51,118 nucleotides of DNA from a bacterium. GTDB lineage: Bacteria > Bdellovibrionota_C > UBA2361 > SZUA-149. Below the pieces are notes generated by a model. That model was not told where the DNA came from. It saw only the letters and a program-made list of their open reading frames with translations, and did no database searches. The position numbers and the translations under genes were made by a program. Below, in pieces: positions 31,317-50,330 of the stretch. Position 1 is the stretch's first letter. Each line of letters begins with the position of its first letter. Where the stretch lies: assembly GCA_030433295.1 (NCBI GenBank), contig JAUIMJ010000003.1, forward strand, positions 1 through 51,118, in the 5' to 3' direction.

Positions 31317-31997
31317 GCCAGAGTCTTCCACATTCTTTCTATAACTACTGTATATATCGGCACTTTGGCCCATTCTCTTTATTTAGTAATTTACTGTGTT
31401 TGTCGGACGTGGAATTGACGATATTTCGTCGGTCTGTGCTGTGGCTTTTGGCGCTGAACAGAAGGTGATTTTGACTCGCAGCGGTATGTTTCGGCCTTCA
31501 TTGGGCCCGGATTATGGCGTTGTGACAAAATTTTTACACCGCACTTTTTTCAAACTACAGCAAAATGCTGTCCAACAATGTACACAAATTTTGGGGTGTC
31601 TGTATTCTGACGCCGAGCGTCCAATTATTAAGCAGTGCCTGAAATGTGCCGACATCCACGCCCCGGACTACTCGGAAATACCGTTTTCGTAATTAAAATC
31701 CAATAGTTAGCCTCAAGGCCTCCAGCCACCTCAGTCCCGAGCTGCAAGGAGGATGAAGAGGGGTGTCGGAATTCTGTCACTTTCCCGAACACTGGCATGT
31801 CCTTTGCCATTTCTCTGACACCGGACGCGTTGGCCTGAATCTTTACGTGTCCATTTTTTGGCAGGGTGCATCAATACTCTCTGTGGATGCCAATTTCCCG
31901 TTTCTGCGGTGGAGCATTCACGAGAAAAGATTTTTGAGTTTATTGGTGCTGTGCGAATCCTTAGGGAATGTAACGGTTAATTAGGAGGCAGGTTTTC
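31317..31997. other. Intergenic region upstream of the flagellar regulatory operon
   Basis: About 680 bp between the epimerase leader and the sigma-54 activator gene. No credible gene; the 98-codon plus ORF near 31396 lacks a ribosome site. It contains a strong sigma-54 promoter match at 31793 and a partial dyad TGTCGGA ... TCTGACA (about 31763-31825) around it. Confidence 0.5.
31793..31808 (+). promoter_or_regulatory. Sigma-54 (-24/-12) promoter upstream of the first activator gene
   Basis: TGGCATGTCCTTTGCC matches the TGGCACG-N4-TTGCW consensus in nearly all fixed positions, with the required GG-N10-GC spacing. It lies about 190 nt upstream of the activator ATG. Activity is inferred. Confidence 0.7.
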
Positions 31998-33104
31998 ATG
32001 TTTGAGCACGCAGCGGATTATGACGGTTATTCATCTCACTTTAGTACATTCTCCGCGACTTCGGAGACCGCAGAGATTCCGAAGAAAAACGGCAAAGGCT
32101 CCTTCGACCACATTGTTACCGAGCATCCACGCATGCGGGAGATATTCAATGTCGTCAAGAAAGTAGCTTCCACGAACAGCACCGTCCTTATCCTTGGGGA
32201 TAGCGGAACGGGCAAGGAGCTCATCGCAAGAGCAATTCACGAAAGCAGTGGCTCCAAAGGTCATTTCGTTCCCGTCAATTGCGGGGCGATTCCAGACAAT
32301 CTCCTGGAAAGCGAACTCTTTGGTCACGAGAAGGGAGCATTTACCGGTGCGATAAGCAGTAAACCGGGTCGCTTCATGATGGCTGACAACGGAACCATCT
32401 TTCTCGACGAGATCGGAGAGATGAGTCCTCATCTGCAGGTAAAACTCCTTCGTGTATTACAGGAGCGAGTAGTTGAGTCAGTAGGTGGACTCAAAGCAAA
32501 GCCGGTAAATGTCCGCGTTATCGCAGCGACGCATGTAAATCTTGCTGAGCGGGTAAAAGAAGGAACGTTTCGGGAGGATCTCTACTATCGTCTGCAGGTG
32601 GTGCCTGTTGAGCTTCCGGCTCTGACTGACCGCAGAGAGGATATTCCTCTTCTTGCGAAATTCTTTAGTAAGAAATTTGCCAAAGAGAACGGACGTCGGC
32701 CCCTCGTCTTCAGTGACGAAGTACTCGATGCCTTCGGTTTATATCAGTGGCCGGGAAACATCAGGGAGCTTGAGAACCTGATACAGCGCCTCAGTATCCT
32801 CGTTGACAGTGATGCCGTACATCTGAGCGACGTGCCTCCTCATATTCTAAGTCCGAATGCGGGATCCGCAGGTCTTGTTCAATCAACCGAGCTCCCCGAT
32901 GAAGGGCTGGACTTTAATGCCGTAGTTGAAGAGTTCGAAAACGGCCTCATTCTACAGGCCCTGGAGCGAACCGGAGGAAATAAAAAGGCTGCAGCCCGAC
33001 TACTCAACCTCAACCGTACGACGCTGGTCGAGAAGATAAAGAAGAAAGGGCTTGATTCCGCTGTTGCACGCTCGGGTGCCGGCAATGACGCTGCATCGCA
33101 CTAA
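31998..33104 (+). CDS. Sigma-54-dependent transcriptional activator without receiver domain
   Basis: 368 residues. About 40 N-terminal residues of no recognised domain precede an AAA+ activator domain: Walker A GDSGTGKE, the sigma-54 contact loop GAFTGA, Walker B GTIFLDEIGEM and REDLYYRLQVVPVELP. The C-terminus carries a Fis-type HTH (GGNKKAAARLLNLNRTTLVEKIKKKG). It remodels sigma-54 RNA polymerase for open-complex formation. FleQ/FlrA-type master regulators have this arrangement, so it is probably the top activator of the flagellar genes that follow. AGGAGG lies 9 nt before the ATG. A sigma-54 promoter precedes it, suggesting autoregulation or a higher-level activator. Confidence 0.94.
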   Translation: MFEHAADYDGYSSHFSTFSATSETAEIPKKNGKGSFDHIVTEHPRMREIFNVVKKVASTNSTVLILGDSGTGKELIARAIHESSGSKGHFVPVNCGAIPDNLLESELFGHEKGAFTGAISSKPGRFMMADNGTIFLDEIGEMSPHLQVKLLRVLQERVVESVGGLKAKPVNVRVIAATHVNLAERVKEGTFREDLYYRLQVVPVELPALTDRREDIPLLAKFFSKKFAKENGRRPLVFSDEVLDAFGLYQWPGNIRELENLIQRLSILVDSDAVHLSDVPPHILSPNAGSAGLVQSTELPDEGLDFNAVVEEFENGLILQALERTGGNKKAAARLLNLNRTTLVEKIKKKGLDSAVARSGAGNDAASH

Positions 33105-33114
33105 GGAGAGTGGT

Positions 33115-34050
33115 ATGAAACTCCTTCGTTTTACATACGCACTAGCGATTCTCTCTCTGGTGCCTGGAGCCGTGGCGGAAACGCATTCACGGGCTCGTCT
33201 CCAGCAGTTTACCAATCCCACCCCGGCTTCGACCGTGCTCGAGCTCAATCGTCAGCAGAAGCACTACGAAGCGGTGCTTGCCTACACTGAGCGAGATGCA
33301 AAAACGCTGTCGCTCACTGAGAAGCTTGCCGCGGCACGCAGTGCCTGGGCTCTGGGGCTCGTCGATACCTCACGAAATATCTGGCAGGAGGCATCCTCCC
33401 GACGCGGATTTACCGGCTCAGAACGTTCACGAGCACTCCTGGCCTATTCGATCATGGAATTTCAGGAAGGGAACTATGAGAAGTCCCGCTCTCTGGCTGA
33501 GCAGGAAGCGCAGAATCTACCTGCCTCGGATCTTCGTTCTCAGTTCTGGCTGGTGATTGCGGAAGCACTCAAAGCTCAGGGCGCCTGGAGTCTGGCGGAA
33601 GGATACTACAACAAAGCCCTCGAGGAAGCTGAACAGGCTCATTCAAGTGAGGCAACCTATCTACTGGGTAGCTGTCAGCTGCGACTCGGGAAGGTAAACG
33701 ACGCACGGTATACCTTTGCTTCTCTTGATACCAGTTCCAAGAACACTGCTGATGCTCTGCGTCGACTTGCCGAGATTGACCTTGGCCAGGGGAACTATGA
33801 GGGAGTGCTGACCTGGCTCGAGGAGGGTCGGGAGAGCTATCCGAGTTTGTTTAACGACTCATGGACCTCCTATGCTGAAGTTACCTCGCTAAGCCGTCTG
33901 TCTCGTGCGCAGGATGCACGCAAAGCGCTGACACGCGCACAGAAAAACCATTCGGATAATGATCCCTGGATTCTCTTTGCTCGTTCTGCGCTTGAGTCAC
34001 ACTTGGCGAAGCAGCTTTTAGAAAACGAGAATGCGGACGGGGAGGAGTAG
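33115..34050 (+). CDS. Exported TPR-repeat protein in the flagellar regulatory operon
   Basis: About 311 residues. A signal peptide (LLRFTYALAILSLVPGAVA) is cut before ET. The mature part is helical with repeated TPR-like pairs: NRQQKHYEAVLAYTER, EFQEGNYEKSRSLAEQEA, QGAWSLAEGYYNKALEEAEQ and LGQGNYEGVLTWLEEG, a solenoid for protein binding in the periplasm. The ORF track adds 21 codons; ATG 33115 has AAGGAGAG upstream and starts 10 nt after the activator stop. Its end is 4 nt before the kinase ATG, so it lies in one operon between the two halves of the regulatory system. Its role is unknown; an envelope checkpoint or flagellar assembly factor is possible. Confidence 0.82.
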   Translation: MKLLRFTYALAILSLVPGAVAETHSRARLQQFTNPTPASTVLELNRQQKHYEAVLAYTERDAKTLSLTEKLAAARSAWALGLVDTSRNIWQEASSRRGFTGSERSRALLAYSIMEFQEGNYEKSRSLAEQEAQNLPASDLRSQFWLVIAEALKAQGAWSLAEGYYNKALEEAEQAHSSEATYLLGSCQLRLGKVNDARYTFASLDTSSKNTADALRRLAEIDLGQGNYEGVLTWLEEGRESYPSLFNDSWTSYAEVTSLSRLSRAQDARKALTRAQKNHSDNDPWILFARSALESHLAKQLLENENADGEE

Positions 34051-34054
34051 GTTT

Positions 34055-34774
34055 ATGGCCCCTGCAACATCGGGTTCAGTTGAATCGGAACGAGCAAAGC
34101 GTCTCATTGCGATGGGGCAAATGGCTGCGAGCCTTGCCCATGAGATTAGGAATCCTCTGGGGAGCATGGAGCTCTATTGCACGCTTCTGAAAAAAGATTT
34201 GGCGACCCAGAGTGAGTCCCTGCAGCTCGCTGAGCAGATACACTCGGGGATACGGACGCTTGATCGGATCATTACGAATTGCCTGCAGTTCTCAAGAGAC
34301 GTTAAGCCGCGCTACGTTGAGGTTGATTCAACCGAAGGAATTTTCAGCGAGATAGTTTCCTATGTGAAACCTCAGCTCGCTGCCGGAACCTTGGGAATCA
34401 CGGTAGAGGAGGAGGGAGATAGTCAGTTGGTAATCGATCCTCATCTGGTGAAACAGGCGCTCGCGAATGTGGTGATGAATGCGGTTGAAGCGATGACTGA
34501 TGCCGGAGTAGAGGGAGGAAGTGTGGAGATTAAGAGCGATCGCCGAGATCCTTCAGTGTGGAAAGTCCTGGTGCAGGACGATGGTCCGGGGATTGAGGAA
34601 GAGAAGCTGGAAACGATTTTTGAACCCTTTGTAACGACGAAGGAAGGAGGTACGGGACTGGGTTTGCCTATCGTACATTCGGTCGTCGCCGCCCATGGCG
34701 GAAAAGTAACCATTGGCAGTAAGTCTCCACATGGCACCACGGTGTCTTTGGAGTTCCCAAATTTTGAGCGCTAG
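34055..34774 (+). CDS. Soluble sensor histidine kinase of the flagellar regulon (FlgS/FleS-like)
   Basis: 239 residues with no membrane segment and no recognised sensor domain. The dimerisation and phospho-acceptor motif is SLAHEIRNPLGSME (His29), followed by the ATPase domain with N box VVMNAVEA, G1 DDGPGIEE and G2 GGTGLGLPIVHS. It presumably phosphorylates the NtrC-type regulator encoded next. A cytoplasmic kinase lacking a sensor fits FlgS of epsilonproteobacteria and FleS of Pseudomonas, which respond to assembly of the flagellar export gate. ATG 34055 has GGAGGAG upstream. The TAG stop is the left edge of palindromic repeat copy 4, which separates it from its partner. Confidence 0.92.
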   Translation: MAPATSGSVESERAKRLIAMGQMAASLAHEIRNPLGSMELYCTLLKKDLATQSESLQLAEQIHSGIRTLDRIITNCLQFSRDVKPRYVEVDSTEGIFSEIVSYVKPQLAAGTLGITVEEEGDSQLVIDPHLVKQALANVVMNAVEAMTDAGVEGGSVEIKSDRRDPSVWKVLVQDDGPGIEEEKLETIFEPFVTTKEGGTGLGLPIVHSVVAAHGGKVTIGSKSPHGTTVSLEFPNFER

Positions 34775-34895
34775 AGCATTTTTCAGGGATGCGTAGCGAA
34801 AAATGCATATGAGTGCGGACGCAGGTCTGTGCGAGAAAAACAGAAGAGCAGTTGCAGGATACCATCTTGCTACAGGTATTCGAGAGCTGCTCTAG
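34771..34895 (+). repeat. Palindromic intergenic repeat, copy 4, between kinase and regulator genes
   Basis: Begins CTAGAGCA at the kinase stop. Hairpin 1 is GCATTTTTC (34776-34784) with GAAAAATGC (34798-34806), hairpin 2 is GTGCGGACGCAGGTCTGTGC (partly decayed), and hairpin 3 is AGAGCAGTTGCAGGATA ... TATTCGAGAGCTGCTCT, ending CTAG at 34895. It runs right up to the ribosome site of the regulator gene. Confidence 0.88.
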
Positions 34896-34908
34896 AAGAG
34901 AGGTCGTA

Positions 34909-36255
34909 ATGCAGGAAAGATCAACAATCCTTGTCGTGGATGACGAAGAGCAGATGCGCTCGGCCATGGAGGCGGTGCTGGCCCGTATGGGACACTCTGT
35001 GATCAAAGCGGTAAACGGCAGTGATGCTCTGGAGAAGCTTGAGCAGAGCAAAGTAGACGTCGTTATCTCGGATATGAAAATGCCCGTGATGACCGGGGGG
35101 GAGCTGCTTGCTCAGATAAAAGAGAATCATCCAGGTATTCCTACGGTGATGATTACGGCGTACGGAACGATTGAACAGGCTGTCGAAGTGATGAAAGACG
35201 GTGCCTTTGATTTTGTTACCAAGCCCTTCTCCGCCGAAGATCTCGAGGGAGTGATTTCGCGAGCGACATCCAAGGGGAGAAAAATTCCGACCAAAAAAGC
35301 CTCGTCGATCAGTCAGGACGCGGTTGCGATTGTGACCGGAGATCCGACCTTCAAGCGAGTTCTGGAGATTGCGGTAAGTGTTGCAAGCAGCTCTGCCAGC
35401 GTGCTGGTTCAGGGAGAGTCTGGGACCGGTAAAGAACTCATTGCCCGTCTCTTGCATACCAGCGGCAAGCAGGACAACGAACCTTTTGTGGCCGTCAACT
35501 GCGCTGCGCTGCCCGAGAATCTGCTGGAAAGCGAGCTGTTTGGGCATGAGAAGGGAGCATTTACGGGTGCGACGGCTACCAAAATCGGAAAGTTCGAGCA
35601 GGCCAACGGTGGTACCATACTCCTCGATGAGATTTCCGAGATGGAATTGCCCCTGCAGGCGAAGCTTCTGCGTGTCCTGCAGGAAAGAGAGGTGGATCGT
35701 ATTGGTGGTACAAAACCAATTCCCGTCGATGTGCGAGTTGTCGCTACGACGAACAGAGACATTCGTCAGACCGTAGCGAAGGGCGATTTTAGAGAAGATC
35801 TCTACTATCGACTTAATGTAATTCCGTTGTATGTCCCGTCTCTGCGTGAGCGAAAGGGCGATATTAAGCTTCTCCTGGAGTATTTCATCCGTCGCTTCTC
35901 AAACGGTGCCGCGAAGAAAATCACTGATGCTCAGTTGAAGAAGCTGGAGGACTACGCATGGCCCGGAAATGTGCGGGAATTGCAGAATGCCTGTCAGCGG
36001 GCCGTCTTGCTGGCGCAGGATGGCGACCTGCAAGCCGAGCATTTTCTGCTCGGGGCTATTGATTCCACTCAGGAGTCTGAGGGTGACGATTCTCTGCGCC
36101 TGCGCTCGGGATTGAGCGTCGCTGAGGCAGAGAAGAGATTGATTCTCGAGACCCTGCGAGTCACGAACAATAATAAAACGAAAGCGGCGGAGTTGCTGGG
36201 GATAAGTATCAGGACCCTGCGTAACAAACTGCACGAGTATGATGCCCCGCGCTAG
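34909..36255 (+). CDS. NtrC-family response regulator of the flagellar regulon (FlgR/FleR-like)
   Basis: 448 residues in three domains. The receiver (phospho-acceptor in VVISDMKMP, about D55; Lys in FVTKPF) is followed by an AAA+ sigma-54 activator domain (GESGTGKE, GAFTGA, GGTILLDEISEME) and a Fis-type HTH (NNNKTKAAELLGISIRTLRNKLHEY). It should activate the sigma-54 promoters found before flgB and fliK. The ORF track begins 32 codons early inside the palindromic repeat; the true start is ATG 34909 (MQERSTILVVDDEEQ), preceded by GAGAGG. It stands as the last gene of the regulatory operon, with the flgB promoter 62 nt after its stop. Confidence 0.94.
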   Translation: MQERSTILVVDDEEQMRSAMEAVLARMGHSVIKAVNGSDALEKLEQSKVDVVISDMKMPVMTGGELLAQIKENHPGIPTVMITAYGTIEQAVEVMKDGAFDFVTKPFSAEDLEGVISRATSKGRKIPTKKASSISQDAVAIVTGDPTFKRVLEIAVSVASSSASVLVQGESGTGKELIARLLHTSGKQDNEPFVAVNCAALPENLLESELFGHEKGAFTGATATKIGKFEQANGGTILLDEISEMELPLQAKLLRVLQEREVDRIGGTKPIPVDVRVVATTNRDIRQTVAKGDFREDLYYRLNVIPLYVPSLRERKGDIKLLLEYFIRRFSNGAAKKITDAQLKKLEDYAWPGNVRELQNACQRAVLLAQDGDLQAEHFLLGAIDSTQESEGDDSLRLRSGLSVAEAEKRLILETLRVTNNNKTKAAELLGISIRTLRNKLHEYDAPR

Positions 36256-42676: not shown

Positions 42677-43138
42677 ATGAAGAAGTTTCACTTCAGGTTG
42701 CAGGGAGTCCTTGACTACCGAATCTCCTGCAAAAAGGAGAAGGAAAGGGTGCTTGCAGCTCGCAATGCTGAACTCGCAAAAGCGGAACAGTATTTGCAAA
42801 ACATCATGAAGCGCCAGGATGAGTTCACTGAGCCGGAGGAAACGGAGATTTCCATGGCTGAGCTGGCGGTGCGAAGGCAGTATATCTGTGCCTTGCAGGA
42901 ATCCCTGATTCGCCAGCGTCAGCAGGTGCAGGAGGCAATTGAGGCAGTAGCAGAGGCACGGGAGGCCTTCGTCGCTTCGGCGATTGAAGCGGAGACGCTT
43001 GAGACGCTGAAGAAGAAAAGATTTAAAGCTTTCTCTGAGGAGCAAAAGAAGCTCGAGAGAAAGGAACTGGATACATTGACGGTTACCCGACATCGTTTCA
43101 GGAAATCGCAGGGGGGAGAACATGGAAGCAGCGATTGA
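42677..43138 (+). CDS. fliJ: Flagellar export chaperone FliJ
   Basis: 153 residues, almost entirely a charged coiled coil. FliJ is the central stalk of the export ATPase and escorts substrates. The N-terminus KKFHFRLQGVLDYR matches the FliJ start, followed by KKEKERVLAARNAELAKAEQYLQ. The call rests on this, on length and on position after fliI. Its end overlaps the next gene by 17 bp. Confidence 0.88.
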   Translation: MKKFHFRLQGVLDYRISCKKEKERVLAARNAELAKAEQYLQNIMKRQDEFTEPEETEISMAELAVRRQYICALQESLIRQRQQVQEAIEAVAEAREAFVASAIEAETLETLKKKRFKAFSEEQKKLERKELDTLTVTRHRFRKSQGGEHGSSD

Positions 43139-44198
43139 CGAGCAGGATCAGGCTTTGCTCGACTTAAAAGCGCAGATGAGCGAGGAGCAGGTCCAGGAAA
43201 TGGCCGATATGCTCAAAGCAGAGCTTGAACGAAGAGAGCAAGAGAAACGCAAAGGAAGTTCGAAGATGGCAAAAGATAAAAGTGCGATAAAGAGTTCACC
43301 GCTGAGTGGTGGTCTGGATGCTCAGGCAATGGGTGAGATGTACGGCGATCTCGAAGGTCAGGTCCGCAATCTTCGCGTTAAAAAGCTCGAAAAGCAGATT
43401 GAAGATGCAAAGCGTCAGCAGAAACGTCTGGGTGTGAAGTCAAAGAAAAAGAAATCTCCGTTCAGCAGCCGGACTGCACCGGTAGCGTCCGGCGCCACAG
43501 CGGCTCCTGATTCCATGGCTGCTGCTGCGGCAGGACATGCTGCATTGAGCGCGCCGACATTCCGCATGCCTGGTCAGAACATGATTATTTTTGCTGCCCT
43601 GCTCGGACTCGCCGCCCTGAAAATCGGCGTGAGCACGGGGAGCGTGCAGGCTGCAATACCTGATTCAGAAGACACGGTGTCGGCAATTGCGCAGGAGCCG
43701 CAAAGCAGAGCTCGCCTCGCTCAGCCGGGTGCTGTTCCCGCGGGTCTTGCCGCAGTAGAGCCCATCTCTGCTCCTCGTAGTTTCGAGAACAGCGCGGTGT
43801 CAGATGCGGAGCGGCTTGTGCTGACGCAGCTCGATCAAAGGAGAGTTGCTCTAGACAAACGAAAGGTGAGTCTCGACAGAAGGGAAGAAGAGATTGAGGC
43901 ACAGAGCGGAATTCTTGCGGAGCGACTTGCAGAGCTGCGTGCTCTGACTGAGAAGTTGGAGCGTGACCGGGATGTGCGCGATAAGCGTCAGCTTGCGAGG
44001 CTGGAACAGCTGGCAAGCGTCTACGGTTCTATGGCGCCAAAGGAAGCTGCGCCTCTTATTGCCCGACTCGATACGGGAATTGCCCTGTCTCTTCTGGAGA
44101 GAATGCCCGGTAAGCGCATGGGGCAGATACTAAGCCTGATGAATCAGGAGCGGGCGATAGAGCTGACTAAGATGCTCACTAACAGCGAGATACATTAG
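43122..44198 (+). CDS. MotE/MgtE-N-like flagellar protein with large N-terminal region
   Basis: 358 residues. The last about 90 residues (LEQLASVYGSMAPKEAAPLIARLDTGIALSLLERMPGKRMGQILSLMNQERA) match the MgtE intracellular-N/MotE fold. They are preceded by a long coiled coil (DQRRVALDKRKVSLDRREEEIEAQSGILAERLAELRALTEKLERD). MotE proteins are periplasmic chaperones of a motor protein. A single hydrophobic segment (MIIFAALLGLAALKIGV, near residue 155) would place the C-terminus in the periplasm and about 150 Lys/Glu/Ala-rich residues in the cytoplasm. Typical members are nearer 200 residues, so this N-terminal half is extra. ATG overlaps fliJ, with a GGGGGAGAA ribosome site. Confidence 0.78.
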   Translation: MEAAIDEQDQALLDLKAQMSEEQVQEMADMLKAELERREQEKRKGSSKMAKDKSAIKSSPLSGGLDAQAMGEMYGDLEGQVRNLRVKKLEKQIEDAKRQQKRLGVKSKKKKSPFSSRTAPVASGATAAPDSMAAAAAGHAALSAPTFRMPGQNMIIFAALLGLAALKIGVSTGSVQAAIPDSEDTVSAIAQEPQSRARLAQPGAVPAGLAAVEPISAPRSFENSAVSDAERLVLTQLDQRRVALDKRKVSLDRREEEIEAQSGILAERLAELRALTEKLERDRDVRDKRQLARLEQLASVYGSMAPKEAAPLIARLDTGIALSLLERMPGKRMGQILSLMNQERAIELTKMLTNSEIH

Positions 44199-44298: not shown

Positions 44299-44883
44299 CT
44301 AGTCCTGCCTCAATCCGGCAGAAACTCTCAACAGCTCGCCAAGCATATCGTTTAATTTCTTTTGCTTTCCGTCGTCGAGTAGCTTCGGTTCATCCTCGCT
44401 GAATGCATCATGGGCAGAGCCCACGGCCAGCTGATCGGGCAGGACGTGCATGCCGATGTTACCAAGAATATCCCGCACATGAACGAGGCCTCTCATGCCG
44501 CCCAGGGCACCGGGGGAGGCGCTCAGCAGGAGTGCTGCCTTTCCGCGAAAACCAGCCATTGGCGTTTCATCCGGCTGCTTTCGGGAAATCCAGTCAATAG
44601 TGTTCTTAAGCAGGGGGCTGATGGAGCTATTGTATTCCGGTGAGACGATGATGAGCCCGTCTGCGGCATTGAAAACTCTCTTCAGGCGCAGCACATCGTC
44701 GGGAGCACCTTCGCTGGCCTCCAGATCCTGATTGTAGAGGGGGATATCCAGGTCTTCCAAACGTATGTTGCTGACATTGGCGCCCTGCTCCTCAGCGATT
44801 TTGGCGGCAATGTCCTTCAGGAGTGAGTTGTATGACCCCTTTCTGCTGCTTCCGGAAATTGCGACGATGTTTACCTTACTCAT
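44299..44883 (-). CDS. NAD(P)H-dependent FMN reductase (flavodoxin-like fold)
   Basis: 194 residues. Flavodoxin-like reductase of quinones, chromate or other electrophiles. The FMN phosphate loop is AISGSSRKGSYNSLL, followed by EYNSSISPLLKNTIDWISR, where SPEYN is the family signature. ATG 44883 has AGGAG 5 nt upstream; the ORF track start is 17 codons too early. It is the last gene of a marR-pirin-reductase set on the minus strand, about 60 nt after the pirin stop. The likely role is defence against quinone or electrophile stress. Confidence 0.93.
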   Translation of the reverse strand: MSKVNIVAISGSSRKGSYNSLLKDIAAKIAEEQGANVSNIRLEDLDIPLYNQDLEASEGAPDDVLRLKRVFNAADGLIIVSPEYNSSISPLLKNTIDWISRKQPDETPMAGFRGKAALLLSASPGALGGMRGLVHVRDILGNIGMHVLPDQLAVGSAHDAFSEDEPKLLDDGKQKKLNDMLGELLRVSAGLRQD

Positions 44884-44943
44884 ATTTGCTCCTTTTTCCT
44901 TGATTCTTACCACTGGGTGACTTTTACGTATCAATTTTGCCGA

Positions 44944-45702
44944 TCAATTGGCGTTTTTTGAGCTGCGAAGATCAAAGAGGAGAAACAGACTTTTTGCATC
45001 TGCCTCTATCTCCAATGTATCTTCAGTCTCATTTGGGAATTCCAGGCTGAGACCATCGCCTGCAGCCATCTGCGCTGAATTGACGCGAATTTCTCCTTCG
45101 AGAAGTTGTATCCATGCGGATCTGCCGACAGAGCTGCCATAGCTGAGGCCTGCTCCGGCTTCCAGAGTGCCTACAAATATATTGGCGTCCTGCCGGATTG
45201 GAAACGACTGCTCCCTACTGTTCTCTGGGCTGCTCTCCGCTGTTCTAGATGAATGGGCTATGCGCCTCAGGCTGTTCTTCTCTATGCCCTCCCGAAGCGA
45301 TAGTTGTTCGTATCTGGGTCCCAGGCCTTTTGTCTCCGGGTGCAGCCAGATCTGGTAGAGATGCAGGGGCTCGGAGCTTGAGGCGTTGTACTCGCTGTGG
45401 GTAACGCCCGAACCGGCAGACATATACTGCAGCTCCCCGGCCCTGATAATGCCGGAGTTACCCATACTGTCCTCGTGCTTAGCCGCGCCACTCAGTACAT
45501 AGGTGAAGATCTCCATATTGGCATGGGCATGGGTTGGAAATCCTTTGCCCGGTGCTATGACATCTTCATTAATGACCCGTAAATCGCTAAATCCCATATG
45601 CCTCGGGTCCCGATAGGAGGCAAAGCTAAAGGAGTGCTTACTGTCCAGCCAGCCGTGCTGCACATGTCCTCTGTCTTCGGCGTGTCGTATTGCGCTATTC
45701 AT
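44944..45702 (-). CDS. Pirin-family bicupin protein
   Basis: 252 residues. Bicupin with a metal site in the N-terminal cupin: the HAHANMEIFTYVLSG stretch gives two His and a Glu, and further on there is HSEYN. Some members (YhhW) show quercetin 2,3-dioxygenase activity; most roles are unknown. The ORF track extends 43 codons too far upstream. The family start MNSAIRHAEDRGHVQHGWLD at 45702 has AGGGAGG 5 nt before it. Lies 77 nt after the marR stop and before the FMN reductase gene; a pirin-reductase pair under a MarR repressor suggests redox or quinone response. Confidence 0.93.
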   Translation of the reverse strand: MNSAIRHAEDRGHVQHGWLDSKHSFSFASYRDPRHMGFSDLRVINEDVIAPGKGFPTHAHANMEIFTYVLSGAAKHEDSMGNSGIIRAGELQYMSAGSGVTHSEYNASSSEPLHLYQIWLHPETKGLGPRYEQLSLREGIEKNSLRRIAHSSRTAESSPENSREQSFPIRQDANIFVGTLEAGAGLSYGSSVGRSAWIQLLEGEIRVNSAQMAAGDGLSLEFPNETEDTLEIEADAKSLFLLFDLRSSKNAN

Positions 45703-45779
45703 TGCGTCCTCCCTATTATTAGTCCCCGTAGCCTGAAACTTCTGCTGAAATATCCCCCTCATGAGATCACTCTGCAGGC

Positions 45780-46250
45780 TTATGCGGGGGAAGCTACCCA
45801 GGCACTGCGTACCGTTTCTAAGAGCTGGCAAAGCGTAGTCATTTGCTCTGCGTCTACATGGGCGAACAGCTCTTTGTTGAGGGATTCCACTTCGGGTTGT
45901 AAGCGCCGAAGCAAAGCCTCGCCTTCGCTGCTCAGCCTGACGAGAATCTTTCGTCTATCGCTCTCGCCGCGTACCCGTTCAATGAGCTGCTGCTTCTCGA
46001 GTCGGTCGAGGAGGCCCGTAATCGCAGGAACGACCTGAATCATCCGCTGGGATATTTCTGAACACTGAAGTGCTTCCGCTGCTCCTCCAAGAATGCGTAG
46101 CACGTTATACTGTGAACTCGTGATTCCATGGCTGCGAAACAGACGACCAAAACGATTCTGCAGGAGGTCACTGGTTCTCAGTATCTGTAGGCTGCATTCC
46201 TCTTCTATGAGCTCGAATGGCCGGCTGCGCTGTAGTTGTTTGTAGAGCAC
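45780..46250 (-). CDS. MarR-family transcriptional regulator
   Basis: 156 residues. Winged-helix dimeric repressor. The core is QYNVLRILGGAAEALQCSEISQRMIQVVPAITGLLDRLEKQQLIERVRGESDRRKILVRLSSEGEALL, which contains the recognition helix and the wing DRRKILV. No conserved pair of sensing cysteines is visible; one Cys lies near the N-terminus (SLQIL preceded by EEEC) and another in LQCSE. GTG start with GGAGAT upstream. First gene of the marR-pirin-reductase set, with a likely self-operator 14-46 bp upstream. Confidence 0.92.
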   Translation of the reverse strand: MLYKQLQRSRPFELIEEECSLQILRTSDLLQNRFGRLFRSHGITSSQYNVLRILGGAAEALQCSEISQRMIQVVPAITGLLDRLEKQQLIERVRGESDRRKILVRLSSEGEALLRRLQPEVESLNKELFAHVDAEQMTTLCQLLETVRSAWVASPA

Positions 46251-46296: not shown

Positions 46297-46472
46297 AAGT
46301 TCGTCAAGTCTGGCGGGCAGAGTGAGAACAGGCAGGGAAAAGTGAGCAAAAGGGACAAAATTTCCGGCAAAATTTGCCTGCCTGGTAGAAACTGCCTCTG
46401 CTGCTATTTTTATCCAAAATGTAAGCCTCTGAAATAGCTGGGTAAAATCCTCCCTGGAGCTTTGGCGCGGGC

Positions 46473-46488
46473 TGGCAAGGGCTTTGCT
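46473..46488 (+). promoter_or_regulatory. Sigma-54 promoter immediately upstream of fliK
   Basis: TGGCAAGGGCTTTGCT differs from TGGCACG-N4-TTGCW at one fixed position and keeps GG-N10-GC. Transcription would begin near 46498. The ORF track start (TTG 46484) lies inside the -12 element and cannot be the translated start if this promoter is used. Confidence 0.75.
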
Positions 46489-46510
46489 TAGTATTGGAAG
46501 TGGATGTGGA

Positions 46511-48103
46511 GTGGAACTGAGCAGTATTAGTGGGGATGGAAGCGTGGAAAGCAATAAGATTAGCCAATTGGCTCAGGGACTGAGTTCAAAGGCGCAGGCA
46601 GCGCAGAAAGCAGTGAGCGGTGAAGATGTGGAAGGCACATTTTCACGATTGTTGGCCCAGCTCTTCGGAGGAAGGCCGGCACAAAGCGAGGTGCTTGACC
46701 CATTAGAGTTCGCACCAGCTCCCGTAGGGACTGAAGTACGGCAGGAAGCCAGAGAAGCAGAGGTATCGGAGGAAGTAAGCGATGAAGACGCTTCGATTGC
46801 ACAGGAAGAAGAAGTAGCACAGGAAGAGAGCTCTTCCACCGAGGAAGAAACGGAGGAGAGCGAAGTTGCGGCGGAAGGGAATTCAGCCACGGAAATAGCG
46901 GACGAGACGATGATCATAGAGGATTTGATCACCGAGGTAGTCCCAGAAGAGGAAGTTGTTCTGCTTGAAGAGGCCATACCCACGGAACAGGTGGCAGAAG
47001 TTGTTGAAGCAGTAGCAGAAGAAGTTGAGCCGACGCAGGTAGCAAAGGCAGCAGTTGTCACGGAGACAACGACTGAACGAGTGCGAAACGTTGAAATACA
47101 GAAGGATCAGGCAGTAGACGTGAAGAAAGATGCTCCACAACAGCAGCAACAGCGACCTGAGATGCTTCAGTCTCAGGCCCAGGAGGCAGCAGAGTATGCT
47201 GAGCTCGCAGGGGAGGCCGTTGAAACTGCAAATAGTGGAAAGCAGACACAGGCAGTGAACAGCAAGCGAGTTGAGAAAGTTCAGCTGGACGTAAGCCGTC
47301 CGGAACGTTCTTTCACTAACTTCGAGGAAGTATCGGAAGGAGCCGAGGCAACGCTGACTGCTACAATACCACAGGCGCAGGCAGCGCCCGTGCAGGCGCG
47401 AAGCGCAGAGACAGGACTGCAGAACGTTGGCGGTGCTGAACTGGCAGGCGGAAGCGCTTTGAGTGCACAGATAGTGCAGTCGGCAAGTTCGACAGGAGGA
47501 CAGTCGGGACAGTCAGGTCTTTCAGGGCAGGGAGCAGACGCCGGACTATTTGCAGGAAGCAAGAGCAAGCGTGCAACTACTGATGCAAAGGCTGCGGAGA
47601 AGCCACGCGGAGAGAAGTTAGCACAAAGTGAGCAGGAAAAAGTTGTTGAGAAGGTGAAAGAGCTTCTCAAGAATGCTTCAGCTGCTCGAAATGGTAATAC
47701 ACTTGTCGTTAGACTGGATCCCCCAAAACTCGGTAGTATGACGATGCGGGTGACACATAAGGATGGCCAGGTGTATGCTCGAATTGTTCCGGATTCTCAG
47801 GAGGTAGAGGATACCTTGAGAAATCGAATTCCGGAGCTGATGCAGGTGCTGAGTCAGGCGGGAATGCGCGCAGACGATGTGCACGTAAGTATTGGCCACG
47901 AGCGATCCGAGTCCGAGATGTACCAGTTTAGTGAGTTTTTTAATCAGAGTGGATTTTCAAAGGAGCAGGCGAAGAGCGAGCGCGAAAAGCAAGGCAGTAA
48001 GTCAGATGCCAGCGGTTCTGCGGTCCAGGGTGATGCCGGAGTGGATATCACAATGACGTCTTCGCAGCAGCAATCAGTCGAGAGTGGCGCCTGGGTGGCA
48101 TAA
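46511..48103 (+). CDS. fliK: Flagellar hook-length control protein FliK
   Basis: About 530 residues. Secreted molecular ruler that sets hook length and switches export specificity. The C-terminal domain is diagnostic: LVVRLDPPKLGSMTMRVTHKDGQVYARIVPDSQ ... LRNRIPELMQVLSQAGM. The N-terminal about 400 residues are low-complexity (Glu/Ala/Val/Gln-rich), as expected for the ruler part. The TTG start of the ORF track overlaps the -12 box. GTG 46511 or GTG 46544 (GGGGATGGA upstream) are realistic starts; I list the first, without much certainty. Separated from the motE-like gene by a minus-strand islet but followed directly by flgD and flgE. Confidence 0.9.
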   Translation: MELSSISGDGSVESNKISQLAQGLSSKAQAAQKAVSGEDVEGTFSRLLAQLFGGRPAQSEVLDPLEFAPAPVGTEVRQEAREAEVSEEVSDEDASIAQEEEVAQEESSSTEEETEESEVAAEGNSATEIADETMIIEDLITEVVPEEEVVLLEEAIPTEQVAEVVEAVAEEVEPTQVAKAAVVTETTTERVRNVEIQKDQAVDVKKDAPQQQQQRPEMLQSQAQEAAEYAELAGEAVETANSGKQTQAVNSKRVEKVQLDVSRPERSFTNFEEVSEGAEATLTATIPQAQAAPVQARSAETGLQNVGGAELAGGSALSAQIVQSASSTGGQSGQSGLSGQGADAGLFAGSKSKRATTDAKAAEKPRGEKLAQSEQEKVVEKVKELLKNASAARNGNTLVVRLDPPKLGSMTMRVTHKDGQVYARIVPDSQEVEDTLRNRIPELMQVLSQAGMRADDVHVSIGHERSESEMYQFSEFFNQSGFSKEQAKSEREKQGSKSDASGSAVQGDAGVDITMTSSQQQSVESGAWVA

Positions 48104-48181: not shown

Positions 48182-48862
48182 ATGGCCGATGACAACAGCA
48201 TCAATGCTATAAAAGGGGCAAACAACGTAACCCCCGCTTCCAATACCCAGAATTCTTCGAGTTCCTCGAGTCTGACGGGTCAGCAGGAGCTGGGGCAACA
48301 GGAATTCCTGACGCTGCTGGTCAACCAGCTGCAGAATCAGGATCCCCTGGACCCCATGAACAGTGAAGAGTTTGCGGTGCAGTTGGCACAATTCAGTCAG
48401 CTGGAAACACTGAACCGCATCGACCAGAAGCTGGGAGATAGTTTCTCAAGTTCAAATTCTATCGGAAGCATGGCTTCCTACCTCGGAAACGAAGTAGTGA
48501 TGGGTGATGCTTTCATGAATGTTGAAGGAGGTAATGGATCAAACCTCCTACTCGATGTACCCGAGGGCACGCAGTCGATTCGCGTGGATCTCGTTGACCA
48601 GGATGGGACCATTGTAGGGCAGCACGCAATCGATGACATCGATGCAGGCCGGCAGGTAGTAAATCTCAAAGATTTGCCGGTGCAGGATGGAAAATACGAT
48701 GTTCGTGTTGTGTCAGTTGACGCGGAAGGTCGCTTTGTCGACCTGGATGCCAAGGTCACTGCTACGGTGGAAGGATTTGTTCTCGAGCCTGAGCCACGAC
48801 TGATTGTCGATGGTGAAGAGGTGGCGCTGGAGCAGATAGTGGAAGTTTACAAGGGAGCGTAG
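48182..48862 (+). CDS. flgD: Flagellar hook-capping/assembly protein FlgD
   Basis: 226 residues. Hook cap needed for polymerising FlgE. The N-terminal signature is LGQQEFLTLLVNQLQNQDPLDPMNSEEFAVQLAQFSQLE. The middle and C-terminal beta domains follow (DVPEGTQSIRVDLVDQDG, GRQVVNLKDLPVQDGKYDVRV), matching the FlgD Ig-like FLG domain. The 78-nt gap from fliK holds no clear promoter, so co-transcription with fliK is likely. Confidence 0.95.
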   Translation: MADDNSINAIKGANNVTPASNTQNSSSSSSLTGQQELGQQEFLTLLVNQLQNQDPLDPMNSEEFAVQLAQFSQLETLNRIDQKLGDSFSSSNSIGSMASYLGNEVVMGDAFMNVEGGNGSNLLLDVPEGTQSIRVDLVDQDGTIVGQHAIDDIDAGRQVVNLKDLPVQDGKYDVRVVSVDAEGRFVDLDAKVTATVEGFVLEPEPRLIVDGEEVALEQIVEVYKGA

Positions 48863-49007: not shown

Positions 49008-50330
49008 GTGCCTAGTATCTCTGATGGTCTATTTGCCGGTCGTGCCGGAATTCAATCACACGGAACTGCGATTTCAGTTCTCGCTGATAATATCGCAAAC
49101 CAAAACACAGTTGGTTTTAAACAATCCCGCGCGGATTTTGTTGACCTGCTCGCCGGAACTATCGGCGGTGGCGGCGGTGCCGGTTCTACGGGGAGTGGTT
49201 CCTCGGTAGTCGGTATCACACCAAACCTCAAGCAGGGGTCATTCGAATTCACCGGTCGAGGTCTTGATGCCGGTATTGATGGCAACGGATTGTTCATCGT
49301 AAACGACCCCAACACTAACCAAAGATTTTACACACGAGCGGGTAACTTTCAGGTCGACCCCTCCGGTAACCTCCTCGATCAGAACGGCTTCGGCGTTCTC
49401 GGATTTCCGGCAAACGGTGCCGGTGGCCTTGAGGCCCTGAACGTAAACATTCAGGCAACGGGCGATGTGGATTCGGGGAACGTGACGATTACCGGTAACC
49501 TTGATGCTACGTCGGAATTGAGGCCAACACCTGGTTTTGTAAATGCTGTAGACGGAACTGCTGTTGCTGGACAAACCTTTGCAACCCTTGGAGCTCAGGC
49601 TAATTTCCAAACGTCGGTCGACGTATTTGACTCCATTGGCGCGAGTCATACTGTTACCCTTTTCTACTATCACAGCACCCTGGGGGATGCGAGCGTTCCT
49701 CAAAACAGCGTATGGACAGTACAGGCTGTAGTAGATGGGTCGGAGGTGACCGGTGGTACCGCGGGACAGCCTTTTCAAATTGGTTCTCAAACAATAGAGT
49801 TTGGCTCTAACGGTTTGCGAACGGCTCCGCCTATTGCGCCCGCAGCAGACTTCACTGCGACTCCCGCGTGGAGTAGTGGTGCAGCCGCGGGTGCCATTAA
49901 TTTTACCCTTGCGCCCTATACGCAGTTTGCATCGCCATCAAACGTTGGCTCTATTGCTCAGGACGGAACGGGTTCTGGTAGTGTTGTCGGATTTAACTTC
50001 TCCGACGACGGAACTCTCTCTGCCCAGCTCGATAACGGTGAGGTAGCAACCATCGGAACCGTTGCTCTGGCGATTTTTGCAAACACCGAAGGTCTCGCTC
50101 GTCTCGGTAACTCGCTCTTTGCCGAAACATCAGACGCGGGTGAAGCCGTTATCGGTCAGCCGGATACGGGAACCTTCGGCCGTCTGGAGTCAGGTGCGCT
50201 GGAGCTTTCAAACGCCGATATCGCTGCCGACTTCATTAAGCTGATTTCACTACAGCGGGGTTTTCAGGGGAGTTCGCGGGTTATTACGAATATTGATGAC
50301 CTTCTAAACGAAATCATCAACCTCGCCTAG
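49008..50330 (+). CDS. flgE: Flagellar hook protein FlgE
   Basis: 440 residues. Polymerises into the hook, the universal joint of the flagellum. The N-terminus GLFAGRAGIQSHGTAISVLADNIANQNTVGFKQSRADF is the rod/hook signature, and the hook D1 domain has GRGLDAGIDGNGLFIVND. The C-terminus LESGALELSNADIAADFIKLISLQRGFQGSSRVI completes the family. GTG start, preceded by GGAGGAA. Last flagellar gene here; a bidirectional terminator follows. Confidence 0.97.
   Translation: MPSISDGLFAGRAGIQSHGTAISVLADNIANQNTVGFKQSRADFVDLLAGTIGGGGGAGSTGSGSSVVGITPNLKQGSFEFTGRGLDAGIDGNGLFIVNDPNTNQRFYTRAGNFQVDPSGNLLDQNGFGVLGFPANGAGGLEALNVNIQATGDVDSGNVTITGNLDATSELRPTPGFVNAVDGTAVAGQTFATLGAQANFQTSVDVFDSIGASHTVTLFYYHSTLGDASVPQNSVWTVQAVVDGSEVTGGTAGQPFQIGSQTIEFGSNGLRTAPPIAPAADFTATPAWSSGAAAGAINFTLAPYTQFASPSNVGSIAQDGTGSGSVVGFNFSDDGTLSAQLDNGEVATIGTVALAIFANTEGLARLGNSLFAETSDAGEAVIGQPDTGTFGRLESGALELSNADIAADFIKLISLQRGFQGSSRVITNIDDLLNEIINLA

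Follow-up and report, generated by a model that had tools for sequence, protein, structure and literature searches.

The 51,118-nucleotide stretch of DNA analysed here (the window) carries a flagellar gene cluster in which fliK, the gene for hook-length control, is followed by flgD and flgE and is separated from the flagellar genes upstream of it by an islet that encodes MarR. The locus raises the question of how fliK is transcribed: does it have a promoter of its own, and if so, does that promoter owe its place to the islet? The features on which the first part of the question turns are as follows.

46473 to 46488, + strand: predicted sigma-54 (-24/-12) promoter TGGCAAGGGCTTTGCT of the fliK-flgD-flgE unit, called from pattern, matrix and relatives
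46499 (A), + strand: predicted transcription start of the fliK unit, 12 nt below the C of -12, placed from the position of the site
46544 to 48103, + strand: fliK (PF02120, control of hook length), for which GTG 46544, preceded by GGGGATGG, is the preferred start
48182 to 48862, + strand: flgD, putative member of the fliK transcription unit
49008 to 50330, + strand: flgE (hook protein), putative member of the fliK transcription unit

The sigma-54 site at the head of fliK

The fliK product matched the Flg_hook family (PF02120) with 59.2 bits against a cut-off of 29.8, and flgD and flgE are adjacent to the gene. At its head, TGGCAAGGGCTTTGCT places the GG of -24 and the GC of -12 10 bp apart, as in TGGCAY-N5-TTGCW, with a single departure from the consensus, an A for C/T at position 6 (C to A relative to TGGCAC). 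This site was the only zero-mismatch match to TGGCA-N6-TTGCW in the 51 kb. It was also the top match of the window to a sigma-54 matrix (an approximation to the published consensus), scoring 16.6 bits where 0.05 matches as good are expected per shuffled window. The genome contains rpoN (PF04552, E=6.5e-66). The strict pattern TGGCAHRNNNNTTGCW occurred nine times in the 4.45-Mb assembly and the reversed control pattern did not occur; four of the nine fall in long open frames or on their margins, and genes follow most of the remaining matches. A pattern match alone is therefore no proof of a promoter. The loose pattern with 2 mismatches was uninformative in the window (94 matches versus 88 expected). 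The second-best sigma-54-like site of the window, TGGCATGTCCTTTGCC at 31793-31808, lies 189 nt upstream of the gene for a receiver-less activator (31998); an enhancer palindrome was looked for near this site, and none was found.

Thirty-five other genomes, which range in relatedness from family to class, yielded FliK relatives, and we read the DNA around these. The promoter count covers the 32 relatives with at least 170 nt upstream of fliK, which are non-independent samples. Of these, 26 have a sigma-54 site at the head of fliK that scores 12 bits or more, and 31 have one of at least 8.5 bits, against a background of 3.4% of random 400-bp segments from the same loci that reach 12 bits. The sites of three relatives are weak (8.5-8.7 bits), and G016 is the only one of the 32 in which the site is absent. 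TGG and TTGC are invariant across the 32 sites that score at least 8 bits (the window's included), and the relatives that carry the site belong to at least 15 families. In the nearest relative (G003), TGGCAAGACTCTTGCT stands at the same place. Flagellin upstream regions, tried as sigma-54 targets, were used as a contrast set; they were mostly siteless, with only 2 of 30 (8 from this genome, 22 from relatives) reaching at least 12 bits. The heads of six further PF02120 hits, which are paralogues or divergent copies, likewise lacked a comparable site. The host lineage is uncultivated: the named records that matched in the FlgE alignment are MAGs whose labels read Deltaproteobacteria, Bdellovibrionales, Pseudomonadota or just bacterium, and FlgD as a query for named relatives found nothing.

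Consensus matches do not prove function, and some of the nine strict matches of the genome fall inside long open frames; it could be argued that the site is accidental, and that fliK opens at TTG 46484 or even earlier and depends on a different promoter. Such a coincidence, by chance or through coding, is very improbable, since the position is kept across all of those families, together with a paired, phased enhancer (described below). In addition, the sigma-54 site of G003 is followed closely by an in-frame stop, and the SD of TTG 46484 is weak. That fliK carries a sigma-54 promoter of its own had been claimed in a sequence-only reading of this DNA, and the claim is upheld by the rank of the site in the window and by its conservation at the head of fliK in relatives. 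The sequence itself shows the promoter, the enhancer palindrome, the conservation and phasing of the two, and rpoN in the genome; that the promoter is used, which protein activates it, and the exact nucleotide and codon at which transcription and translation of fliK begin are inferred.

The marR islet and the predicted transcription-unit boundary

The second part of the question concerns two features that lie upstream of the promoter.

43122 to 44198, + strand: motE, a FlbB-collar-like gene at the end of the upstream flagellar operon, with matches below curated cut-offs
44299 to 46250, - strand: islet of genes for FMN reductase, pirin and MarR, between motE and the fliK enhancer

The name motE is a working name; MgtE_N and an FlbB collar model both matched, below cut-off. 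The sequence-only reading had suggested that the islet interrupts the operon and that the promoter restores late fliK expression past it. This would make the promoter a compensation for a motE-fliK operon broken by the islet. The islet genes oppose motE and fliK, so that read-through from motE to fliK is unlikely, and the promoter would indeed keep fliK expressed. However, the promoter is class-wide, and it is present where motE is close: in G004, the distance from motE down to the promoter is 130 nt, and that gap holds the promoter along with two copies of the enhancer, and the promoter is also present in G028 and G019, in motE-fliK gaps of 381 and 393 nt, respectively. (G027 was left out as a contiguous case; its motE match is possibly interrupted, and other coding sequence lies between.) This comparison of relatives with contiguous motE and fliK, which the sequence-only reading had itself proposed, speaks against restoration. 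The promoter is present, too, where fliK lies elsewhere: many relatives have no motE match upstream of fliK on the stretch read, fliK, flgD and flgE stand together there, and the site still heads fliK. Finally, between motE and the fliK promoter G003 carries an insert of another, transposase-like kind, with the same promoter and enhancer. Because the promoter occurs with motE near, without motE adjacent and with another insert, it would predate the islet and be independent of it, and we give the compensation scheme hardly any credence.

In the motE-fliK gap of the nearest relative (L031:3340-4300), a frame of about 320 codons resembled a REP-type/Y1 transposase when read by eye. Set beside the islet of the window, it suggests that the motE-fliK boundary took different inserts in two genomes. 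The order fliK-flgD-flgE is kept in most relatives. The islet sits at the boundary between two predicted transcription units, and no operon is cut. Our main reading is that fliK has its own sigma-54 promoter, which heads a separate fliK-flgD-flgE unit in the hook (middle) class and is ancestral and independent of the islet; we put its probability at roughly 0.88, on the strength of sequence comparison. The flagellar cluster would then be divided into two transcription units.

Translation start and leader of fliK

The position of the promoter bears on where FliK begins, and three further features are needed here.

46484 to 46486, + strand: TTG, the computed start, within the -12 box and rejected (its SD is weak at -4.1 kcal, and in G003 a stop comes after it in frame)
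46511 to 46513, + strand: GTG, a less likely fliK start, with its best SD-like stretch at 46496-46503
46499 to 46543, + strand: predicted 45-nt untranslated leader with five GGA triplets

As the sequence-only reading had pointed out, the computed TTG shares bases with the TTGC of the -12 box, and a codon inside the -12 box cannot serve as the start on a sigma-54 transcript. The same start artefact is found in 8 of the 32 relatives, in which the longest reading frame for fliK begins before the promoter. The start given to fliK by the automatic caller is thus corrected by the position of the predicted promoter. GTG 46511 and GTG 46544 are both in frame, which agrees with the earlier view that the real start is one of these downstream codons, and GTG 46544 is favoured. 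Measured from the predicted +1 (A46499), the leader would be 12 nt to GTG 46511 and 45 nt to GTG 46544; the "very short leader" that had been expected holds for the first codon but not for the second.

Two points favour the alternative that the promoter is real but FliK is translated from GTG 46511 behind a 12-nt leader: the codon is in frame, and the nucleotides GTGGAACTGAGCAGTATT are unchanged in G003. In G003, however, a TGA inside this shared stretch breaks the FliK frame, and the leaders of the window and G003 differ by indels of 1-2 nt; both points argue that the region around 46511 is not coding-like. Furthermore, the SD-like stretch of this codon begins upstream of the predicted +1. 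A start at GTG 46511 is therefore unlikely. GTG 46544, which has GGGGATGG at spacing 4, is the probable translation start, and in G002 a GTG at a similar position is likewise preceded by GGGGA. This preference would be weaker if the G003 assembly contained a frameshift error.

Of the fliK coding windows of equal length, 0.8% contain as many GGA triplets as this leader, and the flagellar contig C377 of this genome carries csrA. Control of the fliK leader by CsrA is possible. An Rfam search of the fliK upstream region in the window gave no match. In family f13, ten loci (L044, L047, L049, L050, L052, L054, L055, L060, L061 and L063) share a conserved leader downstream of the sigma-54 site and ahead of the fliK ATG, with the consensus TGGTGGGnnnGTGCAGGACGCRACnCnnGGCTTAAGATAAGCCGCCCCC. 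Compared with Rfam, the f13 leader reached no family at the gathering threshold, and the loci of the relatives gave only tRNAs. The leader folds into an outer stem and two hairpins, one of which has a GGA loop as in CsrA sites; covariation is thin, with one pair changed on both sides.

Upstream palindromes, their spacing and candidate activators

Two palindromes lie between the islet and the promoter.

46366 to 46378, + strand: candidate enhancer (ftr/FlbD-type), the palindrome GGCAAAATTTGCC, lying 107 bp before the first base of the promoter
46384 to 46396, + strand: second, weaker enhancer-like palindrome GGTAGAAACTGCC (7/8), at -89

The counterpart in G003 is GGCAAAACTTGCC at -109. GGCA-N5-TGCC with at least 7 of the 8 arm bases was found upstream of the promoter at 25 of 32 loci (the window included), compared with 8% of random segments, and the exact form at 11 of 32 loci against a background of 1%. 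The enrichment is specific to a gap of 5; gaps of 2, 3, 4, 6, 7 and 8 were not enriched. The published C. crescentus FlbD motif is CCCGGCAxxxxxTGCCGGG (PMC3333781). The palindrome upstream of fliK equals this motif and is a candidate FlbD/ftr-type enhancer.

The distances from palindrome to promoter cluster at about -56, -77, -88, -98, -109 and -120, and a periodicity scan of the spacing peaks at 10.5 bp. With one value per family (13 families), the phasing gave R=0.74 and p=2e-4 versus uniform spacing; with distinct values only, it gave R=0.57 and p=0.001. These p-values are optimistic because the pattern was seen in the data before testing; no fit was made for the period. According to PMC7408454, which cites Minchin et al. 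1989, dependence on the face of the helix was shown experimentally at a sigma-54 promoter for NtrC at nifLA. We lean slightly toward the view that, across the class, the enhancer moved from about -56 to about -120 mostly by whole turns of the DNA helix. If this is true, the activator would work through a short loop that holds it on one face of the DNA, a rule kept as the distance evolved, and the fliK promoters of this class would form a natural series for testing whether an enhancer must face its promoter.

Candidates for the activator were drawn from the window.

34813 to 36255, + strand: response regulator that combines a Fis-type HTH with a sigma-54 interaction domain, a FlbD/FlrC/FleR-like candidate for the activator
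34031 to 34774, + strand: histidine kinase, candidate cognate kinase, just upstream of the regulator
31998 to 33104, + strand: receiver-less second sigma-54 activator, alternative candidate

All three genes lie upstream of flgB-flgC-fliF. The response regulator scored 427.6 bits against the FlbD model NF050807, below the equivalog cut-off of 750; we regard it as a putative relative in kind of FlbD and do not file it as FlbD. By neighbourhood and family, it is plausibly the activator of the fliK promoter. The receiver-less protein also has a sigma-54 interaction domain and a Fis-type HTH, and this protein, or one encoded elsewhere, might act at fliK instead. We think this doubtful: FlbD is the second-best NCBIfam model for the response regulator, with 427.6 versus 304.7 bits for the receiver-less protein, at the head of the flagellar cluster the regulator gene adjoins the one for the histidine kinase, and the motif of the enhancer is of FlbD type.

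With the response regulator as the most plausible activator, we propose that a hexameric FlbD/FlrC-type protein would bind the palindrome or palindromes at 46366-46396 and be brought by looping over about 100 bp to the closed sigma-54 polymerase complex at 46473-46488, where its ATP hydrolysis would open the fliK promoter. By analogy with FlbD, FlrC, FleR and FlgR (PMC7064773, PMC8036289, PMC3930126), the promoter may be opened once the basal flagellar parts have been made. RNA would then begin near 46499 and FliK translation at GTG 46544, and sigma-54 RNA polymerase and the activator would transcribe fliK-flgD-flgE under mid-class flagellar control.

Control of fliK by sigma-54 in other bacteria, and the enhancer motif, are already known. 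The arrangement resembles the FlbD/ftr hook and late promoters of C. crescentus in its -24/-12 promoter, upstream GGCA-N5-TGCC and mid-class flagellar genes (PMC3333781, PMC3930126). Unlike Caulobacter FlbD, which is without a cognate kinase (PMC7064773), the candidate regulator here adjoins a histidine kinase. In Pseudomonas, fliK is a class III gene under sigma-54 and FleR of the two-component pair FleS/FleR (PMC8036289), a similar form of control, whereas here fliK heads a fliK-flgD-flgE unit. The Desulfovibrio vulgaris sigma-54 regulator DVU1063, which has an atypical receiver, also has its motif upstream of flagellar genes (PMC3333781). The printed form of that motif, GGCAxxxxTGCC, has 4 spacer bases, in contrast to the spacer of 5 found here, where 4 is not enriched. 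In the FlgS-FlgR regulon of Helicobacter and Campylobacter, fliK is likewise RpoN-dependent (PMC3930126), but FlgR acts without an enhancer, whereas here the upstream palindrome is conserved. The predicted fliK promoter with its FlbD-type candidate enhancer is an old flagellar control switch that recurs across the class, and in this uncultivated lineage it would place hook genes under sigma-54 and a FlbD-type enhancer.

Twelve Flagellin_N matches were found in this genome (G000) and up to 23 in relatives, some of them in open frames of 600-980 codons. Only two other loci on the flagellar contigs of this genome were found to combine a sigma-54 site with an enhancer-like palindrome, one upstream of fliD and one at C377:6976, and the enhancer is weaker at both. 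At the latter (L130), a strict sigma-54 site with a palindrome at -91 lies upstream of a gene for a small protein of about 114 residues.
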